A DNA stretch of 51,471 nt. It comes from Nitrospira sp. CR1.2 (lineage in GTDB: Bacteria; Nitrospirota; Nitrospiria; Nitrospirales; Nitrospiraceae). The stretch lies in assembly GCA_014055495.1 (NCBI GenBank), contig WIAG01000025.1, positions 1 to 51,471 on the forward strand. The letters run 5' to 3'. A program made the position numbers and the translations under genes. Shown piece after piece: positions 16,255 to 51,471 of the stretch. Under the pieces are notes generated by a model. That model saw only the letters and a program-made list of their open reading frames with translations. It ran no database searches and was not told the origin of the DNA. How positions within the stretch are numbered: the stretch's first letter is position 1; every line of letters starts with the position of its first letter.

Positions 16255-16690
16255 GCGCGCTGGGGGGACACGGGTGATCGCTCGTCGAGCAGGCTTGGCG
16301 GGAGGAAAGTCCGGACTCCAAGGGCAAGGACGCTGGATAACATCCAGGCGGAGCGATCCGACACCAGCACCACAGAAAACAAACCGCCGATGGCTGTTGT
16401 CGGGGACCTCGGTTTCTGCCAGCGGCTCAGGTAAGGGTGAAACGGCGGGGTAAGAGCCCACCGCGGTGATGGCGACATCAACGGCACGGTAAGCGTCGTC
16501 CGGAGCAAGACCAAATAGGGAGACGCCCGCGGGTTCGCAAGAGCTCAGCGGAAAGGCCGGCCCGGCCGAAGTCTTCGGGTAGGTTGCTTGAGGCTCGAGG
16601 TAACTCGAGTCCCAGAGAAATGATCACCCCCGGGTGAGCGCAAGCTTCACGCGGGACAGAATCCGGCTTATAGGGTTTCTCCAACGCGCT
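16255..16690 (+). ncRNA. rnpB: RNase P RNA, bacterial class A
   Basis: Catalytic RNA that matures tRNA 5' ends. Universally conserved elements are visible: GAGGAAAGTCCGGACTCC at 16302-16319, GGTAAGGGTGAAACGGC near 16430, GTAAGAGCCCACCG near 16450, AGAGAAATGATC near 16613 and ACAGAATCCGGCTTA at 16656-16670. The ends are set by P1 pairing: GCGCGCTGGGGGGAC from 16255 pairs with GTTTCTCCAACGCGC ending near 16689 (one mismatch plus G-U pairs). No T-run terminator follows. The 3' 60-70 bases overlap the end of a minus-strand coding region. Confidence 0.97.
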
Positions 16691-21372: not shown

Positions 21373-22166
21373 AACCAGCTATGAAACCTCCGTTCGCGAA
21401 GGGGAATCGAAAGCGACAGGCCATGTACCTGATTCCCAACCTCTGCACCACGGGGAATCTCTTCTGCGGCGTATTTGCGATTCTGTCGGTATTTAACGGG
21501 CAGCATCTGTCGGCCGCCATCGCCATCCTGGTGGGCATGATCTTTGACATGCTGGACGGAAAGTTGGCGCGATTGACGAACAGCACCGGGCAGTTCGGCA
21601 TCGAGTACGACTCGCTGTCAGATGTGGTGTCGTTCGGTGTCGCGCCGGGCCTGTTGATCTATTCCTATGCCTTGAGCGGACAGGGCACGTTTGGTGTGGC
21701 GGTGATGTTCGCCTATGTCGCCATGGGTGCGGTCCGGTTGGCTCGCTTCAACGCCACGGTGAGCAACGCGGACAGCAAATACTTCACCGGCTTGGCGATC
21801 CCGGCGGCGGCCGGGGTGATTGCCTCCCTGGTAATTTTCGATTTGCATATCACCCAGCTGGGCTCGGAAGTCAAACCATTGCTCATCTTGGTGATCACAT
21901 TCGCCCTGGCGTTCTTGATGGTCAGCACGATCAAGTATCGCAGCTTCAAAGACCTCAAGTTCCGGCGGGGCGATCACTTTACGTATCTGGTCTGGGGCAT
22001 TCTGGCGCTGATGTTGATTGTCGCGTGGCCTCAGGCTATGCTGTTCGTCGCGTTCAGTGGTTACGCCATGTCCGGTCCGTTGTCACGTCTCTGGACGATG
22101 GTTGCAAAAGGCGCCGGGAAACCCGTCACGAAAGTCGATGGGCCGGTCTTGGATTCGAAAGAGTAG
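21369..22166 (+). CDS. pssA: CDP-diacylglycerol-serine O-phosphatidyltransferase
   Basis: Integral membrane CDP-alcohol phosphotransferase that forms phosphatidylserine. 265 residues, about seven or eight hydrophobic segments, with the family signature spread over about residues 60-85: DGKLAR, then G and YDSLSD with the metal-binding aspartates. Translationally coupled to psd. The ilvBNC-psd-pssA-leuA order is also known from deltaproteobacteria such as Geobacter. Confidence 0.95.
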   Translation: MKPAMKPPFAKGNRKRQAMYLIPNLCTTGNLFCGVFAILSVFNGQHLSAAIAILVGMIFDMLDGKLARLTNSTGQFGIEYDSLSDVVSFGVAPGLLIYSYALSGQGTFGVAVMFAYVAMGAVRLARFNATVSNADSKYFTGLAIPAAAGVIASLVIFDLHITQLGSEVKPLLILVITFALAFLMVSTIKYRSFKDLKFRRGDHFTYLVWGILALMLIVAWPQAMLFVAFSGYAMSGPLSRLWTMVAKGAGKPVTKVDGPVLDSKE

Positions 22167-22169
22167 CAC

Positions 22170-22430
22170 AGGCGTTGACGAGGAGTAGTAGGGAGTCTCA
22201 ACCGAACTGAGAGAGCTGGTGGTCGGTGCAAACCAGCCGGTTGTCTTCTGAACTCACCTCTGAGCCGGATTCGTGAAGCCCGGATCGACGGGTAGTAATG
22301 GGTCCCGACTGATCCCCGTGACGGATTCATGAGGGTATCGGATGAAGAGGGCTTCATCCGGTGCTGAATCAGGGTGGTACCACGAGGCTCGTAGGGCCTT
22401 CGTCCCTGTTCCCGGGGCGAAGGCTTTTTT
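22170..22430 (+). promoter_or_regulatory. T-box riboswitch, leucine specifier, upstream of leuA
   Basis: tRNA-sensing leader. Stem I elements are AGTAGTA near 22185, AGAGAG at about 22210 and the distal loop GGTGCAAACCAG. The specifier loop reads GAA-CTC-ACC with codon CTC (Leu) at 22253-22255, matching leuA. A stem III hairpin GGATGAAGAGGGCTTCATCC lies at 22340-22359. The T-box sequence AGGGTGGTACCACG is at 22371-22384; its TGGT pairs with the tRNA 3' ACCA, consistent with discriminator A of tRNA-Leu. It ends in a strong terminator. Uncharged tRNA-Leu should favour the antiterminator and leuA transcription. Confidence 0.93.
22396..22430 (+). terminator. T-box regulated intrinsic terminator
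   Basis: Stem GCCTTCGTCCC (22396-22406) with GGGGCGAAGGC (22414-22424), 11 pairs including one G-U, loop of seven, then six T. Its 5' arm contains CCCT, which can instead pair with the AGGG of the T-box sequence, giving the alternative antiterminator. Confidence 0.9.
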
Positions 22431-42620: not shown

Positions 42621-42929
42621 CCGATTGCGTTTTCTCCCCGCGGGCTGCCGTTCGAACCGCCATCCTTTTCAGCTCATCGGCTCACTTCCTCACAGGTGAA
42701 CGTCCGCTACGAGTGTGTGTGAACGGTAGGCTTGTGCTATTGTTCTGATGAGGGGAATGAGAAGCGTTCTCGACGAAGTTGATAACCCTCCTCATTACTA
42801 CGTACTTCTCTTGTTGACAATCGCATCGAGAATCTCTAAGTACGTTATAGAATACGTTCAAGAAGGTTGGTCGACTGGGGCCATCCGACTTGGGATTCAG
42901 AGGATGTTCACGGCCGGAGGGAGGGATGT
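42621..42929 (+). promoter_or_regulatory. Bacterioferritin control region with Fur-like box and dyad
   Basis: No gene is supported in this 309-base gap. It holds a Fur-like box TGAGAAG-C-GTTCTCG (42758-42772), a consensus -35 TTGACA (42814-42819) with a weak -10 TAAGTA 17 bases on, and an inverted repeat ACGTACTT (42800-42807) / AAGTACGT (42838-42845) that brackets the -35 and overlaps the putative -10. An AT-rich TTATAGAATACG follows. Iron-responsive control of the ferritin genes is plausible. Confidence 0.55.
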
Positions 42930-43406
42930 ATGAAAGCGAAACAGGGTGTGATCGAATTGCTGAATAAGGTGCTGACGGCTGATCTCACCGCCATCAACCA
43001 ATATTTCGTTCATGCGAAGATGTGCGCGAATTGGGGATACGAACGGCTGCACCACAAAGTGAGGGAGCGCAGCATCGATGAGATGAAGGATGCCGACGAA
43101 CTGATCAGCCACGTATTGTATCTGGAGGGCGTCCCGAACGTTCAGCGGATGAATACCGTGCACATCGGTGAGACGGTTCCTGAGCAGTTAAAGCTCGATC
43201 TCAAGGCCGAACAGGAAATGCTGACCTTGTTGAGCGACGGGGTCACCCATTGTGCAAAGGTCGGTGATTTTACAACCAGGCACATGCTTGAGGAGATGGC
43301 CAAAGATGTGGATGCGCACATCGATTGGATTGAGACGCAAATGGAGACGATCAAGCAGATAGGCCTCGAGAACTATCTGGCTGAGCAGATCAACAAGGAC
43401 AGTTAA
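42930..43406 (+). CDS. bfr: Bacterioferritin, heme-type subunit with degraded ferroxidase site
   Basis: Iron-storage cage subunit of 158 residues, aligned without gaps to E. coli Bfr. Heme ligand Met52 is present (SIDEMKDAD). Of the ferroxidase ligands, Glu51, Glu94 and His130 are kept, but position 18 is Asp, 54 is Asp and 127 is Val. So this subunit should bind heme but oxidise iron poorly alone. GGAGGGAGG precedes ATG 42930. A paralogue follows 35 bases downstream. Confidence 0.94.
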   Translation: MKAKQGVIELLNKVLTADLTAINQYFVHAKMCANWGYERLHHKVRERSIDEMKDADELISHVLYLEGVPNVQRMNTVHIGETVPEQLKLDLKAEQEMLTLLSDGVTHCAKVGDFTTRHMLEEMAKDVDAHIDWIETQMETIKQIGLENYLAEQINKDS

Positions 43407-43441: not shown

Positions 43442-43918
43442 ATGAAAGCGAAAGAGGGAGTCCTCGATATTTTGAATAAGGTGTTGGTCAGTGAACTCAC
43501 GGCGGTGCACCAGTACTTGCTGCACGCGGCCCTCTGCAAGCATTGGGGGTATGGTCGACTGCGCGAGCACTATAGTCACTTGGCTCAGGAGGAAGTCAGC
43601 CATTCTTCAGGCCTCATCGATCATATTCTCTATCTCGGCGGAGCGCCGGCAATGGATCGTTTGGATACGGTAGCCGTGGGCAAGAAGGTGTCGGAGCTCT
43701 TTGAGGCTGATCTTGCGTTCGAGCGCGAGGATGCAGATGCGTTGCGCGGCGGAATCGCGCACTGTGTTAAGGTCGGGGACTACACCACGAGACATCGGTT
43801 GGAAGAAATGATCGTCGATACTGAAGAACATATCGAGTGGTTTGAGACCCAGCTTCGCACCATCTCGCAAGTGGGAGTGGAGCGGTATTTGGCCGAACAG
43901 ATCGCAGGTAAGTCGTAA
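43442..43918 (+). CDS. Bacterioferritin paralogue lacking heme Met, ferroxidase-type subunit
   Basis: 158 residues, same length and fold as the preceding gene. Position 52 is Val (QEEVSHSSG), so the axial heme ligand is missing. The ferroxidase ligands Glu18, Glu51, His54, Glu94 and His130 are present; position 127 is Thr rather than Glu. The residue pattern is complementary to its neighbour, so the two probably form a mixed 24-mer, as described for two-subunit bacterioferritins. The start at ATG 43442 mirrors the first gene's MKAK N-terminus. Confidence 0.92.
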   Translation: MKAKEGVLDILNKVLVSELTAVHQYLLHAALCKHWGYGRLREHYSHLAQEEVSHSSGLIDHILYLGGAPAMDRLDTVAVGKKVSELFEADLAFEREDADALRGGIAHCVKVGDYTTRHRLEEMIVDTEEHIEWFETQLRTISQVGVERYLAEQIAGKS

Positions 43919-44122: not shown

Positions 44123-44704
44123 TCAGAGCCTACGCAGAGTTATCGGGGGGCGAGTATCGGAGCGCCCGAATATCCTGGTTGGGCGCTGCCGGGTGTGGTG
44201 TATCCGTAACTCCATCGGTGAGTGGCCGGTCGCTCGCTTGAAGAAATGACTGAAGGCGAATTGATCGCTGAATCCAAGGCTCGTTGCGATTTCGGCGAGT
44301 GTCTGACCGCTGGTGCGAAGCAGTGTGCGGGCCTGCTCGACCCGGTAGCGGCGCAGGTAGGTCGAAAAGGGTTCCCCCATCATTCGTGCGAACAGATCGG
44401 AACAGTATTTTTCTGAACAGCCTAGGAAGTGTGCCAAGACTTTCAGGCTCATTCCACGGTGGATGTTGTCTCTGATGAAGGCTGCGATGCGGGCAGGTAG
44501 GCCAGGCGGAGCGAGAAGAGGCGATCCATTCGAGTGGATCGTGTGCGAAAGATTGAAGAGATCGCAGACGAGGCCTCGCAATTCGTGTTCCGTTCGGACT
44601 TGCTCCAATCGATCGGCCCATTGGGGTGACTGGGTTCGAAGCTCGGACGCGAGGATGTGTAGGCGATCTGCAAATACTGGCGATGCAGAGGATTTGGTCG
44701 TCAT
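44123..44704 (-). CDS. AraC-family transcriptional regulator
   Basis: 193 residues from ATG 44704, with AAGGAG seven bases upstream; the open frame runs on to 45091 antisense into the next gene, without support. The C-terminal ~100 residues form the double helix-turn-helix: MSLKVLAHFLGCSEKYCSDL, then TLAEIATSLGFSDQFAFSHF and the FKRATGHSP end motif. The N-terminal ~85 residues resemble no ligand-binding domain I recognise. It follows the HD-GYP gene by 40 bases and is probably cotranscribed with it. Confidence 0.9.
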   Translation of the reverse strand: MTTKSSASPVFADRLHILASELRTQSPQWADRLEQVRTEHELRGLVCDLFNLSHTIHSNGSPLLAPPGLPARIAAFIRDNIHRGMSLKVLAHFLGCSEKYCSDLFARMMGEPFSTYLRRYRVEQARTLLRTSGQTLAEIATSLGFSDQFAFSHFFKRATGHSPMELRIHHTRQRPTRIFGRSDTRPPITLRRL

Positions 44705-44744
44705 ACGGCGTCTCCTTGCTTGTGTGCTCAGAGCATTCTGAGCG

Positions 44745-45476
44745 TTACGGTAGCGGGGCGCGAAGCGTCTGGACCGGGTCAGTGCCTGGGCTGAATGGTG
44801 CGTCGTTGCCCGACTGCCTGTGTGCAGCCGGGTCATGTAGCAGGGTACAAAATGTGGTACAGAGCTCTGGGTCAAACTGGGAGCCTCTCGAAGCGAGTAG
44901 CGCGCGCAAGGCGATGTGCCATGACCTTGCGCGGGAGGCAATGGTGTCGAACACGTCTGCGAGAGACAGGATTCTGGCCTCGACAGGAATGTAGATGCCT
45001 CGAATCCCATAGGGATATCCGGCGCCATCCCATCGCTCATGGTGATGGGCGATGAACCGTGCAGGCTCGCCGAGAAACGAGAAGGCGGCAAGGAGGGCGG
45101 CGCCGTCCCTCGGGTGACTCTGGAGCAAGGCGTAGTCGTTCGATGCAGGAACGGCGGGGTCGTCGAATACGTGCCTTGGTAATGTCAGCAACCCGACGTC
45201 GTGCAACAATGCCGCATAGTGCAATTCGACGCACCGTTGACGGTCAAGGCCGATGTGTTCGGCGAGCAGGAGCGCATAATGCGCCGTGCGTTCGCCATGA
45301 CCGAAGTGGCCCGGGATCACGGCTTCGATTTGACGTGTCAACCGTTGAAGCCGAATGATTCGAACTGATTCCAATGCATCTTGGGACAGTTCGAGGATGT
45401 CCAGGCTGCCAAGTTGTCGGCAGACATCGTGCATCAGTTCTGTCGCGGAATTGATTGGCACTGCTGGTCCATGCAT
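44745..45476 (-). CDS. HD-GYP domain protein, putative c-di-GMP phosphodiesterase
   Basis: 243 residues. HD-GYP core: HGERTAHYA, LLHDVG with HD at 92-93, the diagnostic HHERWDGAGYP at 145-155 (GYP 153-155) and SLADVFDTIASR. There is no receiver or sensory domain; the N-terminal ~45 residues are a short helical region. The C-terminus is proline-rich. GGAGGG precedes the ATG at 45476. Activity is inferred from motifs only. Confidence 0.88.
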   Translation of the reverse strand: MHGPAVPINSATELMHDVCRQLGSLDILELSQDALESVRIIRLQRLTRQIEAVIPGHFGHGERTAHYALLLAEHIGLDRQRCVELHYAALLHDVGLLTLPRHVFDDPAVPASNDYALLQSHPRDGAALLAAFSFLGEPARFIAHHHERWDGAGYPYGIRGIYIPVEARILSLADVFDTIASRARSWHIALRALLASRGSQFDPELCTTFCTLLHDPAAHRQSGNDAPFSPGTDPVQTLRAPLP

Positions 45477-45568: not shown

Positions 45569-46099
45569 CTAGGGGGAGGGCTTAGACCCCTCACTGTGTT
45601 TGCCGGCCATGAGCGGCTGTTTCAGGACCCACATTTCGTGCAACGGGATCCACATCATCACCAGAAACGACACCATCATGAAGGTATCTCCGGTCAGCAT
45701 CGTCAGGACGAAGATCGGAGACACGTAACTGATGAGCCAGGGGGAGAGCAAATCCAGCCCCACCCCGGCGAACGAGAGCCACGACATCCACACTTTTGTG
45801 GCGTGACTCGCATTCGTGAGGTACAGCACGTGAACCAGGATCATGAACACCACCGGCATCGTAAACAGGTGAAAGTGAGTGACTTCAGCCAGCTCACGAA
45901 ACGACATCGGTTCGCCGAAGGTGGCATCGGAGCCACGATAGTGAGCCGCAATCCCTTGGGGGGAGAGGCCGGTCATGCTATGGGCCCAGAAGAAGGAAAA
46001 GAGAAACCCCACCAGCATCAACAGGAGGAATTGCGTGTACAACAGCCTGATGTGACGATCCGAATCACGCAGGCGGAATCGGGTATTGAAATTTCGCAT
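45569..46099 (-). CDS. Four-helix membrane protein with several histidines
   Basis: 176 residues and about four membrane helices (roughly 19-39, 77-95, 103-126, 128-151). A 35-residue loop after helix 1 contains His40 and His53; His75 and His77 sit at the entry of helix 2, His90 lies inside it and His154 at the end of helix 4. This is compatible with heme b or metal binding but is not proof. I do not recognise the family. It lies 23 bases after the exported FMN-binding protein, so an electron-entry role for that protein is a reasonable guess. Confidence 0.75.
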   Translation of the reverse strand: MRNFNTRFRLRDSDRHIRLLYTQFLLLMLVGFLFSFFWAHSMTGLSPQGIAAHYRGSDATFGEPMSFRELAEVTHFHLFTMPVVFMILVHVLYLTNASHATKVWMSWLSFAGVGLDLLSPWLISYVSPIFVLTMLTGDTFMMVSFLVMMWIPLHEMWVLKQPLMAGKHSEGSKPSP

Positions 46100-46122
46100 G
46101 CCGGTGCAGTGCCTCGACGCCC

Positions 46123-46809
46123 TCAGTTGCCGAACAGGGTCCCTAGGAATCCTCGCTCGGCCTTCTGCACTGCCACCGTATCGCTGCCTAAGCCAGCCGG
46201 CTTCAGGTAAAACTCGTCTACCAGGACCAGAACTCGTTTGACGCCGGCGTTCATCGAACGGACGGACATGGTTGCGCCGCTGATGTTGATGATGTCCTTG
46301 TTGATGCGGATAGGATCCGAGACGGTCTTGCCGTCATACTGGGAGTTGAATCGTTTCTTACCGACCTCACTGCCCTTGGCATCTCGAAACACCAGCAACT
46401 CGACATCGGTGCAATTGCCTTTGGCATCCACACCGACCATATAGGTCATGGGTTTATATTTGCCGATGGTGTTGTGGATCATCGCATACCCATCGATTTT
46501 GTCTCCGGTCTCTCCGATGTACAGATCGAAGGAGTCTTCCGGGAATTTCCACCCGATGCGCTGTTCGATGAGTTCTTTCTTGTCTTGCGCGAGGCGAATC
46601 ATTTCCTTGCGGACACGTTGAGATTTCGGGAGGATCGTTTTAACGGCTTCCTCCTCCGTCATGAACTCTTCGTATTTGAAGTCGTCGTCTTTCAGAAAGC
46701 GGCGCAATTCATTGTCCCAAACTTTCTCCGTTGCCAGAGCCGGGATCGACGAGGTCATCAGCAAAACGATGGTGATCAAGGTGCGGTACGCACTCACTGT
46801 ACTGAACAT
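46123..46809 (-). CDS. Exported FMN-binding domain protein
   Basis: 228 residues from ATG 46809 with AAGGAG five bases upstream; the open frame extends further back but loses the signal peptide. Signal peptide 1-27 (SSIPALA). The C-terminal FMN_bind domain ends in the motif SGATMS (177-182); in NqrC/RnfG-type proteins the Thr of SGAT carries covalent FMN added by ApbE. The Asp usually three residues before the Ser is not at that position (Ile174; Asp172 is nearby). An N-terminal helical part (30-85) precedes it. Its start overlaps the lipoprotein stop by 16 bases. Confidence 0.85.
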   Translation of the reverse strand: MFSTVSAYRTLITIVLLMTSSIPALATEKVWDNELRRFLKDDDFKYEEFMTEEEAVKTILPKSQRVRKEMIRLAQDKKELIEQRIGWKFPEDSFDLYIGETGDKIDGYAMIHNTIGKYKPMTYMVGVDAKGNCTDVELLVFRDAKGSEVGKKRFNSQYDGKTVSDPIRINKDIINISGATMSVRSMNAGVKRVLVLVDEFYLKPAGLGSDTVAVQKAERGFLGTLFGN

Positions 46810-47255
46810 CCGTGCTCCTTCAATTTGGTATTCAAGCGGTTCTGCACATCGGTCATGACTTCGGTCGAGGGCTCGGTGTCGGTCCATCCGAACAGTCGAG
46901 AGCCGCCGCGGAAGGCCCACCGTTGTCGCTCTTCGACGAAGCCGATTTTGGTCACGTCGTCCAGTCGTTTGACTGTCAGGGAAATCCGGGACCGATCTTT
47001 GCTGTCCCCCAAGTCTCGCTGGAGCGCACCAAAGGTCCGTCCCGGCATGGGGATTTCAAGCCATGCGGTATCGATCACGCCAGCCGCCCTATCCTGCCGG
47101 GCGATCGCGCGATCTTTGACCGCGTCAAGCGCCGCCTCCCAGGCATGGTCGTAGCTGCAGACCGCGAATCGTTCCTGCATGCCGTCCAGCGACGCGCAGG
47201 CGGCGAGAAGAGCGGGAAGCAGAAGCAAGTTGAGGGTGCGGAGGCGTTGTATCAT
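46794..47255 (-). CDS. Predicted outer-envelope lipoprotein
   Basis: 153 residues with a short lipoprotein signal and lipobox LLAAC (Cys20). The mature part has an AWEAALDAVKDRAIARQD helix followed by strands (GVIDTAWLEIP, RISLTVKRL, KIGFVEERQRW), reminiscent of BamC/NlpB-like or related two-layer folds. No firm family. It sits between porin and FMN-binding gene and is coupled to the latter. Confidence 0.82.
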   Translation of the reverse strand: MIQRLRTLNLLLLPALLAACASLDGMQERFAVCSYDHAWEAALDAVKDRAIARQDRAAGVIDTAWLEIPMPGRTFGALQRDLGDSKDRSRISLTVKRLDDVTKIGFVEERQRWAFRGGSRLFGWTDTEPSTEVMTDVQNRLNTKLKEHGCSVQ

Positions 47256-47269
47256 GCCGTCTCATTCGG

Positions 47270-47309
47270 CCTCGGTCAGGCCGTCCCGATCGGGACGGCC
47301 TGGCCGAGG
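47270..47309 (-). repeat. 40-base near-perfect hairpin between porin and lipoprotein genes
   Basis: CCTCGG-T-CAGGCCGTCCC, loop GATC, GGGACGGCCTG-G-CCGAGG: 17 Watson-Crick pairs plus one T-G, starting six bases after the porin stop. No T-run follows on either strand, so it is more likely an mRNA-stabilising or processing element that separates abundant porin mRNA from the downstream genes than a classical terminator. Confidence 0.75.
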
Positions 47310-47315
47310 AACCGG

Positions 47316-48764
47316 TTAGAAGTACGTGGCTGCTTGGATCAGGAACCCGTTTCCATTCATCGGGCTGCCGGAGGTGCCGAGGTCCCCGGCGTTAACCAGT
47401 CCCTTGGCGTCTTTCTGAGTGTTGAATTGCCAGTCGAATTTGATCACCGTGTCTTCGATCGGCCGGAAATTGAGACCGAGCGTCAAGCGCTCAAGCTTAC
47501 GCTGGCCTCCCAGCGCATTCTGCTTGGTGCGATCGTCGGTGTCCGTGTTGACCTGCTCCCACCTGACAACTGCTGTAAAGGTGGATGCGTCGGTGAAATG
47601 GCTGGGTGCCCATTTCTTGAGGAACTCCGGCATAAAGTGATAATTCCCCTGCACGTAGTACCCTTGCATACCGGCCGGTCCGATGGCGCGGTTGGCCACG
47701 CCCGTCGCATTGTTGTTGCTGATTCTGGTCCATGCCGACTCGCCGATGATTTCAAAGGGACCTTTTTGGAGCGTCCAGTCTAATGCAAACATATCGATGT
47801 AGCCTGCGCCCACGGCTCCGGCTGCCGGCTTGTATGCTCCATGGTAGCCGGAGCCCGCGATTTCAATGCCTAACATCGGGCTGAATGCGACACGGCCCAC
47901 GACGGCCTTGTTGTCATCGCGATCCCGGGAGACACTGCCGCGTGCGCTACGCACTCCAAGATCCGTGATTCCCCCGGCCGTCTGGCTCATGCCATTGACG
48001 GCATAGACTTCGTAGTCTAACTTCGACCGTGAGGAGGGATACAAGGTTCCGTAAATACCGGCGCCTGCCTCAAACCAGGTGCTGGGAATGACGATCCGGG
48101 ATACCATGGGTCGATCAACAAGATCGTTAAGCGGGGAGTCGTGCAGCAAGTTAAACTTTCCGACCGGCATCAGCAGAATGCCGGCGCGGAGGTTGATGGA
48201 TTCATCGATTAAATAGTCCAGTTGGGCGAATTCGATCTGCATGGATCCATCGCCGCTCTGCGGAGCATTTTGGCCGCCGCGTTCGATCTCGATTTCAGTG
48301 GCAAACTTGATATGGTCGGTAATGTCTGCATAAATAAACGGCACCAGCCGTTGCTGGCCGAACGAATTCCGGCTGGGGTTGTCCAGGTTCTGCCGAGACA
48401 ATGAGTTGTACATCACATCGGCGTATCCACCGACCGTTGCCTTCGGAGCACTCAAGAAGGGTTTTGCATACAGAAGTTTGCCGGATCCGGTTGATCCGAA
48501 CCCCAACGGAATCTTTTCTTCGCCCGGACGGCCTACGCGAATATCGGTCATGGGGCCGGTCGCGACCGGGTATTGTGGGGCTGAGCCAGGTTCGGCTTGG
48601 CCCTGCTGCATGCCGCCTTCATGCCGTTCGTGTTCTTTCAATCGTTTCTCGACCGCTTCATCAACGAGTTTCTTGATGTCCTCCGGGGTCATGTTTTCCG
48701 CCAAAGCCGGCAGTGCCGGTAAACTGGCTAGCACGAGAGCCCCGAGGATTGCCCGGATCTTCAT
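47316..48764 (-). CDS. Outer-membrane porin with N-terminal coiled segment
   Basis: 482 residues from ATG 48764 with GGAGG six bases upstream; the frame runs back to 48902 without a better start. Signal peptide ends at ALA22. A charged helix follows (TPEDIKKLVDEAVEKRLKEHE), then a beta-barrel rich in alternating aromatic strands from about residue 95 (ATVGGYADVMYN) to the C-terminal Phe (QAATYF), the outer-membrane sorting signal. It resembles phosphate-selective/OprP-like or related porins; substrate unknown. Cotranscribed with the FMN genes unless the hairpin downstream ends transcription. Confidence 0.88.
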   Translation of the reverse strand: MKIRAILGALVLASLPALPALAENMTPEDIKKLVDEAVEKRLKEHERHEGGMQQGQAEPGSAPQYPVATGPMTDIRVGRPGEEKIPLGFGSTGSGKLLYAKPFLSAPKATVGGYADVMYNSLSRQNLDNPSRNSFGQQRLVPFIYADITDHIKFATEIEIERGGQNAPQSGDGSMQIEFAQLDYLIDESINLRAGILLMPVGKFNLLHDSPLNDLVDRPMVSRIVIPSTWFEAGAGIYGTLYPSSRSKLDYEVYAVNGMSQTAGGITDLGVRSARGSVSRDRDDNKAVVGRVAFSPMLGIEIAGSGYHGAYKPAAGAVGAGYIDMFALDWTLQKGPFEIIGESAWTRISNNNATGVANRAIGPAGMQGYYVQGNYHFMPEFLKKWAPSHFTDASTFTAVVRWEQVNTDTDDRTKQNALGGQRKLERLTLGLNFRPIEDTVIKFDWQFNTQKDAKGLVNAGDLGTSGSPMNGNGFLIQAATYF

Positions 48765-48898
48765 GGCTATCCTCCATCCGCGAGTAAGGTTGTGGTTGGA
48801 CTCGGGACTCAAAGGTCTCTGGTCTACGGGGAAAACAGGTGAATATGATTGATTGACTGGAGCGGGGCTGGTTGCGAGGCCTCCTTTCATATCTCGAA

Positions 48899-49078
48899 TC
48901 ATGCTGTGGCGGTCCCCCAGCCTTCGATTGAGGTGAATGGGATGACGACGATACGTTTACAGCGTTTGCACTTGAGCTCAAGACCTTGTCTGCGGACTTT
49001 CGCAATGAGTTGACCGCATTCGCAACGGGTCTCACTGTCTTGGCAGCATGGCCTCGCGAGGTCATTGTGTACAGGCAT
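48899..49078 (-). CDS. Com-like small zinc-finger protein
   Basis: A 59-residue gene, ATG 49078 to TGA 48899. The protein has Cys19-x-Cys21 (TRCECGQLIAKV) and Cys37-x-x-Cys40 (LELKCKRCKRIVVIP), the layout of the Com family, named for the phage Mu translational activator that binds mom mRNA. Here it is not in a prophage. It is the first gene after the divergent promoter and precedes the porin by 134 bases. The ribosome-binding site is weak. A role as zinc-dependent nucleic-acid-binding regulator is inference. Confidence 0.75.
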   Translation of the reverse strand: MPVHNDLARPCCQDSETRCECGQLIAKVRRQGLELKCKRCKRIVVIPFTSIEGWGTATA

Positions 49079-49102
49079 AGCGACTGTCCGAGTTGGTGTA
49101 AT

Positions 49103-49144
49103 TGAGAACGATTATTAATATTCCAATCGATGTCGGATTGTCAA
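49103..49144 (-). promoter_or_regulatory. Divergent promoter with Fur-like box
   Basis: On the minus strand a consensus TTGACA (49139-49144), 18-base spacer and TATTAA (49115-49120) point toward the Com-like gene. Overlapping the -10 and start site is TGAGAAC-G-ATTATTA (49103-49117), 11-12 of 14 matches to the 7-1-7 Fur consensus. A weaker plus-strand promoter (TTGGTG 49093, TAATAT 49116) toward apbE would overlap the same box. Repression by iron-loaded Fur is predicted. Confidence 0.6.
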
Positions 49145-49245
49145 GTCTGCCGTTTGTGCTTCACACGTGGGACAACGTATTTGCAATTTGCAGAGCGGCT
49201 GGAGAATATGGCGCTCTGTTGCCGTTATGCCTGAGGAGGAGCCTA

Positions 49246-50346
49246 ATGAATCGACCTGGGCCCGTCACAGCCTTTGAAGCATCTGCCTCGACCAATCTTG
49301 AACGTTCGCCCCTTGCGCCGATCTGGTCGGTCATGGCCATGGTCGTTCTCTCCTGCCAACTTCTCATCTTCACTGGTTGTGCCGGGACGCAGCGCAGTTC
49401 CTCTTCGGTGGTCGTGAAAAGAACGCAGATGCAGATGGGAACGTTGGTGACGATCACGTCGGTGGCACCAGATCGCCAGATGGCCCAGGCTGCGGCATCG
49501 GCAGGATTTCAGGAAATCCACCGCTTGGAAAAATTGTTGAGTACCTGGATTGCGGATAGTGAACTTTCGCGTGTGAATGCCGCAGCCGGAGCCGAAGCTG
49601 TGACGGTGAGCCCTGAGACGATGCAGGTGTTGAAAGATTCGGAGAAGATTGCCAGACTGACGGACGGAGGGTTCAATATTCTCGTCGGTCCTGCTGTGGA
49701 TGCGTGGAGTGTGCTTGATCGCCAGGAGGTTCCGTCCGAGGCACACTTGGCCGGGCTTCGCCCTCTTACCGACCGTCGTGGACTGTCTCTCGATGAGGAG
49801 CGAGGAGCGGTCAAACTCGCCAAGGCCGGTATGCGGGTCGACGTAGGGGGGATCGGGAAAGGGTATGCCGCCGACATGGCCGTAGGGGCGATGAGACAGG
49901 CAGGTGCCACTGCGGGAGTCGTGGCCTTATCCGGTGATATCAGGACCTTCGGGCTGCTTCCCGACGGACGAACGTTCCCATTCGGTATCCGGCACCCACG
50001 GCGGGAAGGGACCGTGCTGGCGTTGATTGACCTCCAGAACGAGGCTATTTCAACTGCTGGTGACTACGAGCGATATTTTGAGCGAGACGGGGTGCGGTAC
50101 CACCATATTCTGGACCCAGCGACCCTGCAGCCGGCACGGGACTGCCAAAGCGTGACTGTCGTGGCGCCTGACGGAGTCACGGCAGACGGATTGGATACAG
50201 GCATTTTTGTCATGGGGCGGGCGCGTGGTATGGCGCTGGTCGAGCAGATGCCCGGCGTTGGAGCCGTCATCGTGGATCAGGATGGAAAGGTCTGGGTCTC
50301 GTCCTCTCTTCGTGGGCGGGTGAGGATGAACGATGGGAGCAAATAA
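49246..50346 (+). CDS. apbE: FAD:protein FMN transferase ApbE (lipoprotein)
   Basis: Attaches FMN covalently to Thr/Ser of exported FMN_bind proteins. 366 residues from ATG 49246 with GAGGAGG upstream; an earlier frame start at 49102 would overlap the operator. A rather long cytosolic lead precedes the hydrophobic stretch and lipobox FTGC. The catalytic part shows MGTLVTI, LSTWIADSELSRVN, the GGFNILVGP region, RVDVGGIGKGYAAD, ALSGDIRTFG and the Mg/FAD motif HHILDPATLQPA. Its likely client is the FMN-binding protein encoded divergently. Confidence 0.95.
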   Translation: MNRPGPVTAFEASASTNLERSPLAPIWSVMAMVVLSCQLLIFTGCAGTQRSSSSVVVKRTQMQMGTLVTITSVAPDRQMAQAAASAGFQEIHRLEKLLSTWIADSELSRVNAAAGAEAVTVSPETMQVLKDSEKIARLTDGGFNILVGPAVDAWSVLDRQEVPSEAHLAGLRPLTDRRGLSLDEERGAVKLAKAGMRVDVGGIGKGYAADMAVGAMRQAGATAGVVALSGDIRTFGLLPDGRTFPFGIRHPRREGTVLALIDLQNEAISTAGDYERYFERDGVRYHHILDPATLQPARDCQSVTVVAPDGVTADGLDTGIFVMGRARGMALVEQMPGVGAVIVDQDGKVWVSSSLRGRVRMNDGSK

Positions 50347-50347
50347 C

Positions 50348-50701
50348 GTGAATCAGCGCAGACAGCCCGGAGAGAGTGGACACCCTGGCCGGCGCATCAA
50401 CGGTACGCTCATAGGAGTCGTGATAGGTCTCCTGGCATTGGGTGCATGCGCCGGTCGTCCCCCGTATTTCCAGGATGCGGTCAACGAGGCGACTCAGGAC
50501 ATGGTGGGGAAACGATATGGGGCGCCGCACAACAGACAGTCAGCTTCGGACGGAGGCGAAATCTGGACGTATTTTGAGCGAGGCAGCGGGACGGCAGGGT
50601 TCGGTGGCCACGTCCGGGGAGGCAGCTGTCGGTCCTATGTCCTGACTTTCGATCAACGGGCCGTGTTGCGACAGTGGGCGCAGCAACCCTGTCAGGGATA
50701 A
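50348..50701 (+). CDS. Small predicted lipoprotein after apbE
   Basis: 117 residues from GTG 50348 (GGGAG eight bases upstream); ATG 50333 inside apbE would add five. Hydrophobic segment 20-34 with lipobox LGAC. The mature domain of about 80 residues contains MVGKRYGAPHNRQSASDGG and a GEIWTYF strand followed by a glycine-rich turn and two cysteines, similar in pattern to SmpA/BamE-like lipoproteins. Function unknown. It ends ten bases before the convergent tonB stop. Confidence 0.8.
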   Translation: MNQRRQPGESGHPGRRINGTLIGVVIGLLALGACAGRPPYFQDAVNEATQDMVGKRYGAPHNRQSASDGGEIWTYFERGSGTAGFGGHVRGGSCRSYVLTFDQRAVLRQWAQQPCQG

Positions 50702-50711
50702 CGTCTCCCTG

Positions 50712-51471
50712 TTACCTATCGAGGTAATATCCGAGAGGAATCTGAAGTGTCACCGACGGTTTCTCCAGCGGCTGGGTCATCAGGATGGGTGACGATAGTT
50801 GCATCGTCTCGAGTGCCGCCTGGTCGAGAATGTCATGCCCGGAACTTTTCGCGATTGTGGCAGAGACGATCCGGCCGTCTTCCTGCACCACAATACGTAC
50901 GAGTACCCGGCCTTCCAAATGTTTGACCCGCGCTTCCGCCGGATAGTGTTTGAGCGACTCAATCCGAGGCAGAAGCGACGCGGCAAGCCATCCATAGTCA
51001 GGTTTTCTCGCGACAGCGGCATTGGGTGTCGAGGGCGCGAGTGCTGCTGTGTGCGTCGGAGGGGCGACGCTGTCAGGGGCTTGTTCTCTGGCGGCGGATG
51101 CGAAGGAAGGGGCCTGCGTGGGAAGGGTGTCCGGTAACGGCGGTGCGGCTACTGCCCGTTCGGGAGCAAAGGGAGACTCAACAATGGCTTGGGGCGCTGG
51201 GGCAGGATGCGGCAATTCCGTCGTCGCCGGTTCCGGCAGCGATGGAGGTGAAGGCGTGACCGCTTCCGCTGTTGGCTGGACCTGCAGGATTGTCGGCGGA
51301 GGCGGCGGCTCCGCACTCTGAGGTTTCACCGGACCTGGGATGGGCGTGGATGCCACTGCACGAGGACTTAAAGACTGAGTCGGGGCAGGGCGTGCCGGTG
51401 CCACAGGAACAGTCCGTTGAGGGGGGGTAGTGGTTGAGTGCGCCACGGCCGATTCGTGTGATAGGGTGGAC
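50712..51471 (-). CDS. tonB: TonB energy transducer, 5'-truncated by window edge
   Basis: The frame is open to the window edge, so the N-terminal membrane anchor is outside. What is seen: a proline/alanine-rich periplasmic spacer of about 150 residues, then a C-terminal TonB domain (YPAEARVKHLEGRVLVRIVV, DGRIVSATIAKSSGHDILDQ, AALETMQ). It transmits proton-motive force to outer-membrane siderophore or cobalamin receptors. The GTG at 51446 is probably internal. Its position near the Fur-like box and the FMN genes supports an iron theme. Confidence 0.9.
   Translation of the reverse strand, partial: STLSHESAVAHSTTTPPQRTVPVAPARPAPTQSLSPRAVASTPIPGPVKPQSAEPPPPPTILQVQPTAEAVTPSPPSLPEPATTELPHPAPAPQAIVESPFAPERAVAAPPLPDTLPTQAPSFASAAREQAPDSVAPPTHTAALAPSTPNAAVARKPDYGWLAASLLPRIESLKHYPAEARVKHLEGRVLVRIVVQEDGRIVSATIAKSSGHDILDQAALETMQLSSPILMTQPLEKPSVTLQIPLGYYLDR

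Follow-up and report, generated by a model that had tools for sequence, protein, structure and literature searches.

The 51,471-nucleotide contig WIAG01000025.1 of Nitrospira sp. CR1.2, analysed here over its full length (the window), carries near its right end a gene module that, on balance, we read as a Fur-controlled, flavinylated ferric reductase for iron assimilation with an undescribed membrane electron carrier. At its core are an outer-membrane porin, an exported flavin mononucleotide (FMN)-binding protein (FMN_bind) and a four-helix inner-membrane protein (TM4), accompanied by two lipoproteins (LP1 and LP2) and a divergent gene for ApbE (Table 1). An earlier note, made from the letters of the window, had picked out the exported FMN_bind protein, the divergent ApbE lipoprotein, the porin, both lipoproteins and tonB; open reading frames and Pfam matches place all of them in the window. 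The gene cluster is a genuine conserved module.

Conservation reaches well beyond the genus. TM4, long paralogues included, was found in 107 of 296 sampled genomes of the phylum (E 1e-3), and 85 of the 99 sampled genomes of the order of the window, Nitrospirales, have it at 65% identity or more (counted from the results table). Relatives within this order keep the gene sequence porin, LP1, FMN_bind, TM4, with apbE divergent, and the order porin, FMN_bind, TM4 recurs in distant Nitrospirota. Scanning 84,980 genomes with a distant profile recovered 23 loci, from Nitrospirota, Binatota, Rokubacteria, Deltaproteobacteria (including Desulfuromonadales), Myxococcota and Methylococcaceae/Methylothermaceae. 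At each of the 23, FMN_bind is immediately followed by TM4. On every contig with enough sequence the porin comes ahead of FMN_bind, with the one exception of locus L073, where ApbE stands in that place. In a later test, TM4 occurred in 14 of 136 genomes of one Desulfuromonadales-type order; nine later loci, none of them used to build the profiles, all have the order porin, FMN_bind, TM4. The short form of TM4 was found among 398 sampled Pseudomonadota genomes in the query genome only, which indicates a patchy distribution. The earlier note had named restriction to close strains as a result that would speak against it, and the module instead spans several phyla.

The FMN_bind protein scores 32.8 bits against PF04205 (cut-off, 22), has a predicted signal peptide for export and carries ISGATMS at the end of its FMN_bind domain. 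Of 49 aligned sequences, 47 retain the threonine of this motif and one has serine; the remaining copy, a degenerate one next to a long-form paralogue of TM4, has lost it. Profile matches reveal a weak similarity to RnfG, and the protein is the sole FMN_bind protein found in the genome. ApbE scores 269.9 bits against PF02424 (cut-off, 25.6) and has a predicted lipobox. The pairing of ApbE with such a protein, on which the earlier note had built, holds outside the window: all 19 module genomes checked have ApbE, compared with 7 of 14 control genomes, and loci L031–L037 encode fusions of ApbE with the FMN_bind domain. We consider it very likely that the FMN_bind protein is flavinylated.

The Fur-like operator first noticed beside these genes is kept in relatives and has Fur-like counterparts in other phyla, and as judged from these sequences the module carries a conserved operator of Fur type in its promoter region. 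The site in the window (TGAGAACGATTATTA) is the only one in the 51 kb that scores 11 of 14 against the palindrome, is the best Fur-like site there and has a single exact copy in the genome. It is identical in 9 of 15 other intergenic regions compared and differs by one mismatch in 2 more; in relatives it is often overlapped by another such site shifted by 6 bp, an arrangement known from classical Fur boxes. In other phyla, 19-mers near the Escherichia coli Fur consensus lie before the porin and agree with it at up to 18 of 19 positions. Module promoters reached at least 14 of 19 in 10 of 21 loci, versus 8 of 117 control regions that lie upstream of other genes at these loci (P = 1.6e-5), a comparison that is conservative because some high-scoring controls lie at fur genes beside the module. 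The nine later loci scored 13–15 and their controls at most 13 (P = 1.5e-6); two pairs among the nine have the same box, which leaves about seven independent loci.

The link to iron drawn in the earlier note also gains from the neighbourhood, as fur, fbpABC, exbBD–tonB, FTR1 or ferritin genes adjoin the module in relatives. A fur gene is nearby in the order of the window and at L031–L037, L039, L040 and L043/L067; FTR1 and a cupredoxin are near the module at L031 and L036, a ferritin at L040 and an FbpBC-type ABC transporter at L032, L033, L035 and L037. Within the order, the genes run fur, fbpA, fbpB, fbpC, exbB, exbD, tonB, apbE, leading up to the divergent module, and bacterioferritins are encoded nearby. 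The fbpA product shows homology to structurally characterised ferric-binding proteins (E 8e-48). A second contig of the same genome, C106 (locus L132), overlaps the right end of the window (apbE, LP2 and tonB) and carries exbD, exbB (assigned by position), fbpC, a permease region, fbpA and fur. The overlap is close but not identical to the window, which marks C106 as a strain variant; a strain mixture or assembly redundancy may account for it. The genome encodes 16 TonB-receptor plugs, and a search of it for FeoB and FTR1 found neither. Together, the Fur signal across phyla and the neighbouring fur, fbpABC and FTR1 genes provide independent support for an iron role, and we are highly confident that the module belongs to iron homeostasis.

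TM4, which the earlier note had called unfamiliar, matches none of the membrane classes described in association with flavinylation. The window protein has no match in Pfam (E up to 0.1), NCBIfam or PDB sequences; the Pfam families of NapH, MsrQ, PepSY, DsbD, NQR/RNF-like proteins and DUF4405 match neither the window protein nor 16 diverse members of the family (E up to 1 for the 16). A plasmid search for relatives of TM4 returned no match. The predicted fold is four long helices (AlphaFold2 (AF2), single chain; mean predicted local distance difference test (pLDDT), 87.5). Among the helix-edge histidines that had first drawn attention, H75, H77 and H90 do not vary across the 48 aligned sequences, nor do E72 and W121. 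Helix 2 (residues 67–93) bears E72, H75, H77 and H90, and H75 and H90 share roughly one of its faces, with E72 also roughly there. Charges predict a cytoplasmic N terminus, which would put H90 close to the cytoplasmic end of helix 2 and E72, H75 and H77 at its other, periplasmic end. A VIA fold comparison gave a best Z of 7.7 (root-mean-square deviation 5.5, 121 aligned) and a further Z of 7.6 (root-mean-square deviation 2.9, 116 aligned), both to cytochrome c oxidase subunit I; these scores are within the chance range for helical bundles, and we do not use the likeness as evidence.

Invariant E72, H75 and H90 on roughly one helical face would also suit a metal permease, in which E72, H75, H77 and H90 bind the Fe(II) that the FMN protein produces and move it across the inner membrane in place of Feo. 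The missing FeoB and FTR1 in the genome searched and the constant position of TM4 beside a putative reductase agree with this idea. Four helices of which one is polar are small for a permease, however, and relatives already have FTR1 or fbpBC permeases alongside the module. The long paralogues of TM4 (about 245 amino acids; L044–L047 and L096–L124) also speak for a different function: all 33 examined keep the HxH motif and add a haem-c CXXCH site between helices 1 and 2, and the equivalent of H90 is missing in those inspected. These paralogues are widespread in Pseudomonadota, with no Pfam match where tested (L045). The family thus has redox members, which favours a redox role over transport; we consider a permease unlikely and think that TM4 probably carries electrons. 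At L046 (2429–4350), a P-type ATPase gene is followed by a row of three: a divergent short TM4, an FMN_bind-like protein that has lost the SGAT site and a long TM4. This row is possibly a flavin-free derivative of the module.

The porin (31.2 bits against PF07396; cut-off, 20.9) has orthologues across phyla that share 22 invariant positions. Its AF2 model (pLDDT 70.6) has 16 strands and an N-terminal helix, and its Foldseek matches are general porins and OprO/OprP (OprO TM-score, 0.54 by query length). The 16 strands and this resemblance point to a solute channel rather than the housing of an electron conduit, and anion selectivity of the OprP type would suit anionic ferric chelates. The use of pyrophosphate-iron by Neisseria meningitidis may be an analogue of porin entry followed by FbpABC; single loss of either porin had no effect there (PMC4189776), and the study therefore lends weak support to such a route. 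A second porin of the same family, 43–49% identical to that of the window, directly follows TM4 at L007, L008, L009, L011, L013, L019 and L053.

Porin–cytochrome conduits such as MtrCAB likewise join an outer-membrane barrel to a periplasmic redox partner. The module, in which porin, periplasmic redox protein and inner-membrane protein share one operon, could be an extracellular electron-transfer conduit of this kind with flavin in place of multihaem cytochromes. Its barrel is predicted to be an ordinary one rather than the wide, cytochrome-housing type, a protein with a single FMN cannot span the outer membrane, and the regulation resembles that of iron starvation; we regard this explanation as highly improbable. 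An MtrB-type conduit was rejected on the 16-strand porin model and the lack of any multihaem protein among the module genes, in both of which the module differs from MtrCAB-type systems.

We hypothesize that iron starvation induces the module through Fur and that ApbE transfers FMN to Thr180 in the exported FMN_bind protein. As a probable homodimer, TM4 would hold b haem or haems through its helix-2 histidines (two protomers would allow two haems between them) and would pass electrons from a membrane or cytosolic donor to the FMN. Ferric chelates would enter by the dedicated 16-strand porin or by a TonB receptor, and the reduced FMN protein would reduce them; FbpABC, or FTR1 in some relatives, would then import the released iron, and bacterioferritin would store it. 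The haem in TM4, the dimer, the direction of electron flow, iron as the substrate and the cargo of the porin are elements that we infer. Whereas the earlier note had left open ferric iron or another acceptor, we favour iron as the physiological acceptor with moderate confidence; another envelope acceptor is less likely than assimilatory iron reduction because of the fur, fbpABC, FTR1, tonB and ferritin neighbourhood. More tentatively, and with slightly more doubt than belief, we suggest that TM4 is the founding member of a new class of small transmembrane electron carriers, with haem between two copies of helix 2, and that with the porin and the flavinylated reductase it makes up a Fur-controlled reductive iron uptake that is a main iron route in organisms without Feo.

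Several observations sit poorly with ferric reduction by such a carrier. FbpABC transporters classically carry Fe(III), so that prior reduction is not an obvious step. The invariant histidines of TM4 are limited to helix 2, so bis-histidine ligation of haem requires a dimer or other ligands, and a Foldseek search of TM4 against the PDB gave no significant match (best E 2.8). No good Fur box was found within 300 bp of the porin at L031, L032, L034, L036, L037 and L043, each of which has a fur gene nearby. Most of the flanking genes sampled in Binatota, Methylococcaceae and Desulfuromonadales have no connection with iron. This last point, like Fur control combined with the use of flavin, would fit an iron-sparing electron branch, in which a Fur-induced flavin carrier replaces iron-rich periplasmic cytochromes and reduces another periplasmic acceptor. 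No reductase for another acceptor is conserved with the module, whereas the porin is, and iron-uptake genes flank the module in Nitrospirota; we give iron sparing a low probability and retain assimilatory ferric reduction as the preferred reading.

Table 1. Features of the module and its surroundings in the window
Feature	Position	Strand	Basis
TM4, four-helix inner-membrane protein, 176 amino acids	45569..46099	minus	AF2 model; no family match
FMN_bind protein with signal peptide and predicted flavinylation site ISGATMS (Thr180)	46123..46809	minus	PF04205
LP1, lipoprotein with LLAAC lipobox	46794..47255	minus	Sequence; sub-threshold DUF3576; present in relatives
Outer-membrane porin (Porin_O_P)	47316..48764	minus	PF07396, AF2 model, Foldseek
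Com-like CxC...CxxC zinc ribbon, 59 amino acids, first minus-strand gene	48899..49078	minus	Open reading frame; conservation
Fur-like operator TGAGAACGATTATTA between the divergent gene sets	49103..49117		Palindrome score; conservation
ApbE, flavin adenine dinucleotide (FAD):protein FMN transferase, lipoprotein	49246..50346	plus	PF02424; divergent gene kept across the order
LP2, small lipoprotein, overlaps the end of apbE	50333..50701	plus	Sequence; occurs in some relatives
TonB, 5' end beyond the window	50712..51470	minus	TonB_C
HD_5 phosphohydrolase-type protein, downstream of TM4	44745..45476	minus	Pfam; often kept within the family
Two bacterioferritin genes	42903-43403, 43442-43915	plus	TIGR00754

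Most Nitrospirota loci and one Myxococcota locus (L031–L062) open the module with the Com-like ribbon, upstream of the porin. The Com-like protein of the earlier note is therefore a genuine conserved gene, although its assignment falls short of the Pfam threshold: the ribbon of the window has no match to Com (PF10122), and that of L031 reaches 14.5 bits against a cut-off of 22.9. This small cytoplasmic protein may be a regulator that binds RNA or senses metal. The LP1 gene, which overlaps the start of the FMN_bind gene by 16 nucleotides, was found solely in the order of the window among the relatives compared; Pfam gives LP1 a sub-threshold match to DUF3576 and nothing else, and LP2 has no Pfam match. 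The tonB product scores 56.7 bits against TonB_C (cut-off, 24.6). Past TM4 come the HD_5 protein, an AraC-type regulator and then the two bacterioferritins (185 and 146.8 bits against TIGR00754; cut-off, 125.55), which are near the module in many relatives. The regulator lies beside the HD_5 gene (window 44123–45476), the listed open reading frame overlaps that gene, and close relatives keep both. Elsewhere, the window contains a T-box leader (22166–22410) and an RNase P RNA (16262–16686), both ordinary.

The earlier note knew no characterised system with this exact composition, and we found no paper describing the gene set in the literature searched, whose coverage leaves out most subscription journals. 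Iron acquisition by Nitrospirota is little described in that literature, and the module is a concrete candidate for it. Flavin-based electron transfer also gains a probable new membrane partner here, and the module shows that such a system can have a porin as a constant companion. The survey of flavinylation lists NapH-, MsrQ-, PepSY-, DsbD- and NQR/RNF-like membrane partners, and the word 'porin' does not occur in its main text (PMC8238504); DUF4405 was added later (PMC11334425).

Compared with known systems, the module shares an FMN_bind domain and an SGAT-type site with the RnfG and NqrC subunits, but it has no other Rnf or Nqr subunit and its partner is TM4. The DUF4405 and FezC proteins, small membrane cytochromes, are likewise tied to flavinylation or iron, and FezC has been modelled as forming haem sites by homodimerization (PMC11334425); TM4 differs in having no DUF4405 match and invariant histidines on one helix only. 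FpvG of Pseudomonas aeruginosa, according to the abstract of its description, is an inner-membrane iron reductase that acts with periplasmic binding proteins (FpvC–FpvF) in the release of pyoverdine iron, and so resembles the proposed system in combining such a reductase with periplasmic iron-binding proteins in siderophore iron uptake; that abstract names no FMN_bind, ApbE or porin (PMC6954188), and TM4 has no PepSY match in Pfam. Closest in regulation and proposed function are the PepSY-like flavinylated systems, which are Fur-linked, associated with ApbE and proposed to act in iron reduction and assimilation, but whose usual substrate is DUF2271 and whose membrane protein is PepSY (PMC8238504). 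The module would work like the PepSY-like and FpvG systems; because its membrane protein differs from theirs and a porin is its fixed partner, we class it as a variant of flavinylation-based assimilatory iron reduction.

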